Positions 19,478-20,970 of a stretch of DNA of 64,000 nt are shown one piece after another. The translations under genes were made by a program, and so were the position numbers. The notes beneath the pieces are model-generated. The model saw nothing but the letters and a program-made list of their open reading frames with translations, was not told the origin of the DNA and did no database searches. How positions within the stretch are numbered: the first letter of the stretch is position 1; the number at the start of each line of letters is the position of its first letter. Source of the stretch: Hahella sp. KA22 (GTDB taxonomy: Bacteria > Pseudomonadota > Gammaproteobacteria > Pseudomonadales > Oleiphilaceae); NCBI RefSeq assembly GCF_004135205.1, contig NZ_CP035490.1:1054001-1118000 (forward strand), read 5' to 3'.

Positions 19478-19506
19478 AAAAAAAAACCGCGAAATAAATT
19501 TCGCGG
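19478..19506 (-). terminator. Intrinsic terminator of the 34-codon gene
   Basis: Read on the minus strand, CCGCGAAA and TTTCGCGG make a perfect stem around a four-base loop, followed directly by nine T residues. It lies 41 bases after the stop codon of the small gene and points the same way, so it marks a real transcription unit there. Confidence 0.92.
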
Positions 19507-19547
19507 CAGGAATTGTGCACTTTCATCAGGCTGGAGTCCAAAGGGTG

Positions 19548-19652
19548 TCAACAGTAGTAGATGCTGTTGAGATACTCGTCCAACGCTGCAAAATTTGCTT
19601 GCTCTTGGTCAGTATTTGGAACACAAACTTTCCAATTTTCATCATACATCAT
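19548..19652 (-). CDS. Small 34-residue Cys-terminated peptide, unknown function
   Basis: On the minus strand, ATG at 19652 opens 34 codons ending TGA at 19548-19550. The peptide begins MMYDENWKVCVP and ends LDEYLNSIYYC; it is acidic and aromatic-rich, with one internal Cys (residue 10) and Cys as the last residue. AGGGAGAGA, seven or so bases before the tandem ATG ATG, is a good ribosome binding site, and a strong terminator follows 41 bases after the stop. There is no hydrophobic signal sequence, so it is cytoplasmic or a leaderless precursor. I do not recognise the family. It is divergent to an AraC-type regulator 316 bases away, which could control it. Possible roles (inference only) are a small regulatory protein or a precursor of a modified peptide; no modification enzyme is adjacent. 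Confidence 0.7.
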   Translation of the reverse strand: MMYDENWKVCVPNTDQEQANFAALDEYLNSIYYC

Positions 19653-19968
19653 ACTTGTCTCTCCCTAAGTCAAGTGGCCTGAGTCGGTTCTCTAGGGCCT
19701 GAAAACACAGTTAAACGATGGCTACTGCTTCACGTTTACGGGATTCATATTATCAAGGTGAAAGAAATCCGGCTTGACCGCCTGTGTTAAGCTTTTGACA
19801 TTCTGTTGCAACTTTGCGCAGCTATGGTCGGCTTCTTCTTTAATTGCTACAGCGTCTGCATTGTTGCGGAAAAATCGCCCCCGACTCTTACCGCCATACG
19901 TGGATGATTGTTATATTGGCCGCTAATAATAATTAACAGTCCCATTTAAATGGTTGAGATTAGTTGAT
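19653..19968. other. 316-base divergent promoter region (small peptide gene / AraC regulator)
   Basis: The region should contain the promoters of both flanking genes. It is AT-rich toward the AraC gene (CTAATAATAATTAACAG at 19922-19938). I found no coding sequence and no clear inverted repeat that would define an operator. Confidence 0.45.
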
Positions 19969-20970
19969 ATGGATCAGCCCACTGTCGCCGGTTCCACCGT
20001 TAAAGCGCTTTGCTTTTGGCTTGCTGAGCGAGGGATGGATATCAATGCTTTGGCGCGTGAGGCTGAGCTGGATCTCTCCATGCTGGAAGATCAGGACTAT
20101 CGAGTCCCATTACCGGCTTATAATTTGTTGTGGTCTCGCGCCGAAGAAACCCTGAAGGACCCTGCTGTTGGCCTGCATGTAGGAGAGTGGGTTGATTCAC
20201 GCCGCATGGGGGTGATTGGACACATCATCTTCAACAACCGCACCCTGGAGCAGGGTTTAAAGCAATACGTGCGCCTGTCTGCGCTAGTGAACGAGGGGGT
20301 GCGTACGGAATTTCACCTGCAGGGGGACGATGCGGTCATTGAGTATCATTGCGAACGGCCCGAGTATTATCATCGCGCGGGTATGGATCGGATGCTGGCG
20401 TTGTCGGTGACCAGGGCGCGGCGCTTTGTCAGCGAGAAGATCTACCTGACCAAAGTGGGCTTTGCTCACCCTGCGCCTGAGTATGTCGCCGAATACGAGC
20501 GCATCTTTCAATGCCCGGTGAGCTTCGGCCAGCCCTGTTGCTCTCTCGCCTTCAATAAAGACTTTCTCTCCTTTGAACTTCCCCAGCGTAATCCTTATTT
20601 GCATCAGGCGTTAACTCGCCAAGTGGAGGCGCTGCTGCAGAAGCTGTCTCTGCGCCGTACGGTGTCGCACAAAGTGAAGGCGATTGTGGCCAAGCGCCTG
20701 TCCCGAGGCGATATCGAAGCGGAAAAAGTGGCGGAGAAAATGAATATGTCGCGTCACACCCTGTACCGCAAACTGAAACAGGAAGACGTGTCATTCCAGG
20801 AACTGGTGGAGCAGGTGCGTAAGGATAAAGCCTTGGATTATCTGCAGAAAGGTAAGTATTCCCTTAGCGAAATCGCCTTCCTGCTGGGGTTCTCCGAGCT
20901 GAGCGCATTCAGCCGCGCGTTTAAGCGCTGGACCGGGGAAAGCCCCGCCAACTATCGCAGTCAGCAATAG
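19969..20970 (+). CDS. AraC-family transcriptional regulator (OruR-like)
   Basis: The protein is 333 residues if ATG 19969 is used; an in-frame TTG at 19954 has no ribosome binding site. Residues about 15-200 form the arabinose-binding-like N-terminal domain of the OruR/ToxR-regulated type (ALAREAELDLSMLEDQDYRVPL). The C-terminal AraC helix-turn-helix pair is clear: VAEKMNMSRHTLYRKLKQE and LSEIAFLLGFSELSAFSRAFKRWTGESPANYR. The ligand is unknown. It is divergent to the 34-codon gene and convergent with the CHASE-like gene. Confidence 0.9.
   Translation: MDQPTVAGSTVKALCFWLAERGMDINALAREAELDLSMLEDQDYRVPLPAYNLLWSRAEETLKDPAVGLHVGEWVDSRRMGVIGHIIFNNRTLEQGLKQYVRLSALVNEGVRTEFHLQGDDAVIEYHCERPEYYHRAGMDRMLALSVTRARRFVSEKIYLTKVGFAHPAPEYVAEYERIFQCPVSFGQPCCSLAFNKDFLSFELPQRNPYLHQALTRQVEALLQKLSLRRTVSHKVKAIVAKRLSRGDIEAEKVAEKMNMSRHTLYRKLKQEDVSFQELVEQVRKDKALDYLQKGKYSLSEIAFLLGFSELSAFSRAFKRWTGESPANYRSQQ

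Follow-up and report, generated by a model that had tools for sequence, protein, structure and literature searches.

A 34-codon microprotein gene and its divergent AraC-type regulator in Hahella sp. KA22 and relatives, with a possible link to lipid synthesis

The microprotein gene and its conservation

The window analysed here, a 64,000-nucleotide stretch of Hahella sp. KA22 (contig NZ_CP035490.1, positions 1,054,001 to 1,118,000), carries on its minus strand a small gene of 34 codons and a stop (19548..19652), which an original prediction made from the letters alone had proposed as an overlooked gene and which lies divergent from a gene for an AraC-type regulator on the plus strand (19969..20970). 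The small gene starts with ATGATG at 19652 and ends with TGA at 19550-19548. Its ribosome-binding site, AGGGAGAGA, occupies 19658..19666 of the minus strand, and the GGGAG within it is invariant in all seven congeneric genomes. An intrinsic terminator (19478..19506, minus strand), also picked up as a terminator-like site by a scan, begins 41 bases 3' of the stop with a perfect 8-bp hairpin, CCGCGAAA-TTTA-TTTCGCGG (19506-19487), and ends in nine T residues (19486-19478); all these parts are found in the sequence as originally described. The product, MMYDENWKVCVPNTDQEQANFAALDEYLNSIYYC, has Cys at residues 10 and 34 and is predicted by AlphaFold to form a single helix (residues 15-28) with short extended flanks and lone bridge residues at 10 and 33 (predicted local distance difference test score, pLDDT, 83.8; predicted template modelling score, pTM, 0.48). 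Searches of Pfam, NCBIfam and PHROGs gave no match for this microprotein other than weak one-member Pfam matches, and a profile of its family had no match in the PDB.

The reading frame is kept far beyond the genus. Of 58 relatives, 35 gave a tblastn match (E<=1) to the 34 residues, and a profile search at E<=0.001 recovered the microprotein in 129 of 151 genomes of the family, the named carriers being mostly Marinobacter, together with Halospina and Oleiphilus. Among 54 distinct 27-codon cores, the proportion of synonymous differences (pS) is 0.73 and that of nonsynonymous differences (pN) is 0.25, with differences of 0.25, 0.25 and 0.57 at the first, second and third codon positions, respectively. 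E17, N20, L24 and Y27 are invariant across an alignment of 28 members. The matches in relatives, the family profile matches and the codon-position differences indicate that the open reading frame (ORF) is more than a chance occurrence, and the proposed check of frame conservation therefore came out strongly in favour of the gene. Judged from this comparative record, the 34-codon ORF is a real translated protein-coding gene under purifying selection.

The weight that the original prediction gave to the Cys residues is borne out only in part. Both are present here and the final Cys occurs in 49 of the 54 cores, a set restricted to loci that fitted the search pattern; among the others are some without it, for example with the ends IPAFN or YYGN. 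The final Cys is thus common and not universal, several species having A, R or W in its place or no counterpart at all, and residue 10 is Phe in 39 cores and Cys in only 13. The operator, the paralogues, the lipid link and the invariant element 3' of the gene, all treated below, had no place in the original prediction.

The AraC-type partner and the predicted operator

The regulator, recognised from the ORF list, a domain search and its linkage, starts at ATG 19969 (the mechanical ORF start is TTG 19954) and has an Arabinose_bd and an HTH_18 domain, both over the curated cut-off (PF12625, 148.6 against 27.6 bits; PF12833, 79.8 against 33.6 bits), which confirms the AraC-type assignment made earlier. 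The nearest NCBIfam models are those of two AraC-type activators, QhpR (229.3 bits, cut-off 250) and GliR (182.2 bits, cut-off 570); both scores fall under the curated cut-offs, so the regulator is not classed as an equivalog of either. The closest solved structure is VirS, an AraC protein of Mycobacterium tuberculosis, which shares 16 % identity in the compared domain and which nothing in this analysis ties to the operator or to the microprotein.

The two genes travel together. The 151 family genomes comprise 127 with both microprotein and AraC, two with the microprotein only, one with AraC only and 21 with neither (Fisher p 2e-22, uncorrected for kinship). In 122 of the 127 the genes are divergent neighbours separated by at most 1 kb (181 bp in the median), and in the remaining five, all of one genus, they lie about 6 kb apart; four of these five were examined and retain GTCA-N17-GTCA at the microprotein gene. 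Counted by regulator instead, microprotein and site stand together at 32 of 80 AraC loci, all of them within the 36 loci L270-L305 (L296, L302, L303 and L304 lack the microprotein), and the 44 loci with more distant AraC genes are all without a microprotein. When 11 window neighbours were followed through 32 loci, six of which belong to the window genus, AraC was kept in 28 and each of the other ten in 3-7, with at most two loci outside the genus. The pattern of linkage thus supports well the interpretation of the AraC-type protein as the dedicated partner of the microprotein gene, and the earlier suggestion of a small regulatory protein fits both this dedicated regulator and the isolated transcription unit. 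We also note that the AraC gene beside the microprotein in one genome (G024, locus L130) contains one in-frame TAA inside the match.

The region between the two genes holds a predicted AraC operator (19772..19805, minus strand), a GTCAA direct repeat (19799-19795 and 19778-19774) with a period of 21 bp, the second half of which lies near the -35 position. A GTCA-N17-GTCA repeat is found upstream of the microprotein gene in all 32 family loci and in 33 of 36 loci overall. The motif, built on 34 typed sites (31 of 33 loci, two near-duplicates being dropped, and three more), reads CnnnnnGTCAAannnTTGnnACAggnnGTCAAGC and is followed about 22 bp on by a conserved TA that fits a -10 box. In the window this box would be TAATAT (19747..19752, minus strand, from the alignment of site rows), placing transcription start near 19740; T and A occupy its place in 28 and 25 of the 34 rows. 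The I1/I2 sites of AraC have the same 21-bp period and the same position at -35, and this likeness suggests activation. The fuller consensus has exactly one match in the Hahella genome, at the microprotein promoter, which is therefore the regulator's only strict-consensus site there. Allowing one mismatch added 41 matches, compared with 81 for a reversed control pattern, as expected of background. Of the four matches away from the microprotein in a three-mismatch scan of the same genome, the three examined all lie inside mechanical ORFs, and among eight loci read from such a scan in relatives only one (L266) is a counted fabA site, the others revealing no repeated gene class. We regard an operator at the microprotein gene as well supported by this pattern of sites.

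Repeats of a similar kind were seen in a wider set of regulators. Many of the distant, mostly alphaproteobacterial AraC relatives at L306-L345 have a GTCATG-like repeat of 21-bp period no more than about 75 bp before the start of the AraC match, and a DUF2306-like gene lies divergent at three of these loci (L307, where it is below cut-off, L343 and L344).

Several microproteins occur without the regulator or without the site. One genome (G515) has the microprotein but gives no match to AraC, and the 5 kb read there contain no site. In another (G466, L364 1761-1901) an internal deletion has cut AraC to its two ends and left operator and microprotein intact. Two genomes of the family f7 carry four microprotein classes, three without and one with the site. 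In the family f28 (L107-L120), microproteins such as MKITFNTDVLFSLTSAEEEKMLEALHEYLDNMFFAN are homologous to those of the window's family by profile comparison (97.3 %); they fall into three types overall, each genome having one or two of them at E<=0.1, and most of them have no adjoining AraC, several lying near a short-chain dehydrogenase, an alpha/beta-hydrolase and a phosphotransferase-family gene. At a further locus (G042, L066 5353-5420) a TAATTACTGCTATTAG-like unit of 16 bp stands behind the microprotein stop in about four tandem copies.

Fatty-acid synthesis genes in relatives and the favoured mechanism

The nature of the pathway served by this pair is suggested by its relatives. The pair [GA]TCAA-N16-[GA]TCAA precedes fabA in 10 of 24 fabA loci of the family, and three more have a site scoring at least 19.7 by a position weight matrix (PWM) that was trained on 23 sites, all of them microprotein promoters and some at AraC loci scored later. 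Outside the family, an operator-like site was seen at the single fabA locus of f7 and at none of 11 in other families, where one locus (G043) scores 11.7 without the pair. Three of the 36 fabA loci were missed by the script and, inspected directly, showed no site. Some sites score weakly and yet above their shuffles (G016, 10.8 against 2.0; G021, 13.5 against 0.3), and the pair at fabA of G014 scores 2.4, within its own shuffle range (maximum 7.6). FabA identity is over the NCBIfam cut-off in L358 as well as in the Hahella genome.

In the genus g7 a fabA-fabB-fabV-carboxylase cluster has an AraC paralogue at its end. The phylogenetic tree groups the fabA-linked AraC proteins with those of L303 and L304 in a supported subclade, adjacent to some of the microprotein-linked ones, and places the AraC of L367 elsewhere. 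Other lipid genes are also found beside related regulators. One of them, in G421, is an AMP-binding gene resembling acyl-CoA ligases; it has a site (PWM 23.4) upstream and converges on AraC. In G015 an acyl carrier protein adjoins an AraC paralogue, and in a Pseudomonas a distant AraC relative (32 % identical) is divergent from a fatty-acid desaturase.

Two of the fabA loci were seen to hold a self-contained cluster for fatty-acid synthesis (L358 2575-13185 and L357 918-11630), in which fabA-fabB-fabV is followed by a fused carboxylase of 1525 amino acids whose domains, examined only at L358, are ACCA, biotin carboxylase and biotinyl. The AraC paralogue is convergent at the carboxylase end and an acyltransferase is divergent.

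Comparison of the genomes thus establishes, at the level of sequence, the conservation of the microprotein gene, its co-occurrence and linkage with AraC, the repeat upstream, whose consensus is unique in the Hahella genome, and the presence of a similar repeat before fabA in several relatives. The best explanation seems to us a lipid-responsive AraC activator with the microprotein as its dedicated output, which would bind another protein and in this way tune the synthesis of fatty acids or membrane lipids, a reading to which we assign a probability of about 0.55. The regulator would respond to a lipid or acyl signal, bind the 21-bp-period repeat and activate transcription from the -10 box at 19752-19747; the 34-residue product would then bind a cytoplasmic protein and adjust lipid synthesis after translation. 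The persistence of family members without AraC or without the site favours such an output protein, binding a shared partner, and these members probably serve a partner of the same kind under different promoters.

Several observations weigh against this explanation. Eleven of the 24 family fabA loci have no operator-like site, and nine of 34 AraC-carrying family genomes have no fabA match. Those fabA loci that do have a site are not independent, four coming from one genus and four from another, and the AraC adjoining fabA belongs to a paralogue subclade that may have a role of its own. In G421 the AMP-binding gene has a long-chain fatty acid-CoA ligase as its best NCBIfam match, below every cut-off shown. 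The linkage counts are dominated by Marinobacter, with kinship uncorrected, and a sigma-70 scan did not list the predicted promoter. The Hahella genome's own fabA lacks an operator-like site, and none was found at the five examined fabA loci of the window genus or at the four examined of g12 (Marinobacter), one of which (G017) has no AraC. Because of these last results the lipid link is indirect for the window, and a lipid role of the regulator and the microprotein is moderately supported by the comparison of loci.

Some known regulators and small proteins resemble parts of this system. GliR of Pseudomonas (PA3027), which gave one of the two nearest models for the regulator, is described in PMC8151288 as an activator of glycerolipid genes whose motif overlaps the -35 element; its reported motif A, YYGGCGHTDTYSGMC, differs from GTCAA-N16-GTCAA, and the term 'small protein' is absent from the text of that paper. 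VcdP of Vibrio cholerae is, in the cited portion of PMC8672173, a 29-residue protein that raises citrate synthase activity, and hence a protein of similar size that tunes a metabolic enzyme, and its RNA also contains a conserved region for base pairing. Unlike the system described here, VcdRP is repressed by CRP and its partner is known; the likeness drawn here is one of description.

Alternative readings and biological meaning

The transcript itself may have a second role. Between the ORF and the terminator lies an invariant 21-nucleotide element of the 3' untranslated region (3'UTR), CTCCAGCCTGATGAAAGTGCA (19516..19536, minus strand), a candidate base-pairing region recognised in an alignment of seven congeneric genomes. 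All 21 of its columns are invariant in the seven, compared with 56 of 105 coding and 27 of 88 5'UTR columns, and the longest invariant run in 2000 permutations averaged 6.4 and never exceeded 14; the set represents about four independent lineages, since it includes four near-copies. The element occurs once, exactly, in the Hahella genome. A TGACY motif stands before the terminator in 16 of 23 Marinobacter-like 3'UTRs against 2.0 in shuffles. This comparison took 24 of the 32 microprotein loci, dropped one that had no T run, used a motif picked out once the sequences had been read, and did not control for kinship.

SgrR-SgrS/SgrT is the glucose-phosphate stress system of enteric bacteria. It combines an adjoining transcription factor gene and a short transcript with a small ORF and a conserved region before the terminator (as set out in the cited sections of PMC4021124), and the same order of parts is present here: a gene for a dedicated transcription factor, a small ORF, a conserved 3' region and an intrinsic terminator. 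The invariant element thus suggests an RNA of dual function with the layout of SgrS/SgrT, in which the transcript of about 260 nucleotides would also base-pair with mRNAs through its 3'UTR and the peptide would be the second arm, which is compatible with the lipid-responsive activator favoured above. The likeness is restricted to layout and implies no sequence relation of the peptides: the regulator here is of AraC type and not SgrR, the context is lipid and not sugar, and base pairing is here only a candidate function. The 11-nucleotide search for complements upstream of ATG recovered none that recurs exactly in more than four of the seven, those four being near-identical, and together with a small duplex test of the 21-nucleotide element it revealed no conserved mRNA target. 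In Rfam there was no match above gathering (the only one up to E 1 is a sub-threshold Hrs1 on the other strand), the SgrS covariance model gave no match, and folding of the transcript is not unusual (z -1.32). Given these results and the near-copies among the seven genomes, we consider a dual-function RNA possible, although clearly less probable than the favoured explanation. Somewhat more doubtful still is the fullest version, in which an AraC lipid sensor would drive one dual-function transcript, its peptide from a new family of microproteins of about 30 residues binding an enzyme of fatty-acid synthesis or lipid metabolism and its 3'UTR base-pairing, so that both jointly adjust membrane fatty-acid composition. 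In that version the paralogous microproteins under other promoters would bring further signals to the same partner, giving a multi-input hub through which marine Gammaproteobacteria maintain membrane homeostasis.

A different role for the peptide is that of a feedback inhibitor, induced by AraC and binding AraC to shut it off. Small ANR (AraC negative regulator) proteins such as Aar and Rnr, which bind AraC-type virulence activators and shut them off, act on these regulators by protein-protein contact (as stated in the cited part of PMC10148876), and the divergent linkage, the co-occurrence and the operator at the microprotein promoter would all agree with such a loop. A pure inhibitor, however, is not expected to outlive its target, and homologues survive without AraC or without the site in G515, in three of the four f7 classes and at most f28 loci. 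The microprotein is therefore probably not merely AraC's feedback inhibitor. A check for the ANR family gave no Pfam match beyond the weak one-member ones and none in NCBIfam, the presence of an ANR model in these libraries being unverified. We find feedback inhibition unlikely.

Very improbable is a leader peptide, or a secreted signal or precursor of a ribosomally synthesized and post-translationally modified peptide (RiPP) with a modified Cys: the product is small and acidic and usually ends in Cys, but that Cys is replaced or lost in several species, the gene's own terminator past the ORF leaves no cotranscribed gene to attenuate, and the ten neighbours other than AraC are not widely co-conserved beyond the genus. 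In this comparison, which covered the 11 window neighbours, no gene for RiPP maturation or export travels with the ORF, and the peptide precursor of the original prediction is left unsupported.

The favoured explanation, a lipid-responsive activator with a microprotein as its output, gives the locus a meaning beyond Hahella. The microprotein is unnamed in every library searched and is nevertheless carried by most genomes of the Marinobacter/Halospina/Oleiphilus family, and the trio of regulator, operator and peptide makes its biology testable. A full-text literature search recovered no AraC-type regulator of fabA-type synthesis, and no related small protein, in the Marinobacter/Hahella group. 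If the lipid link holds, the group would have such a regulator, with a microprotein as the output where an enzyme would be expected.
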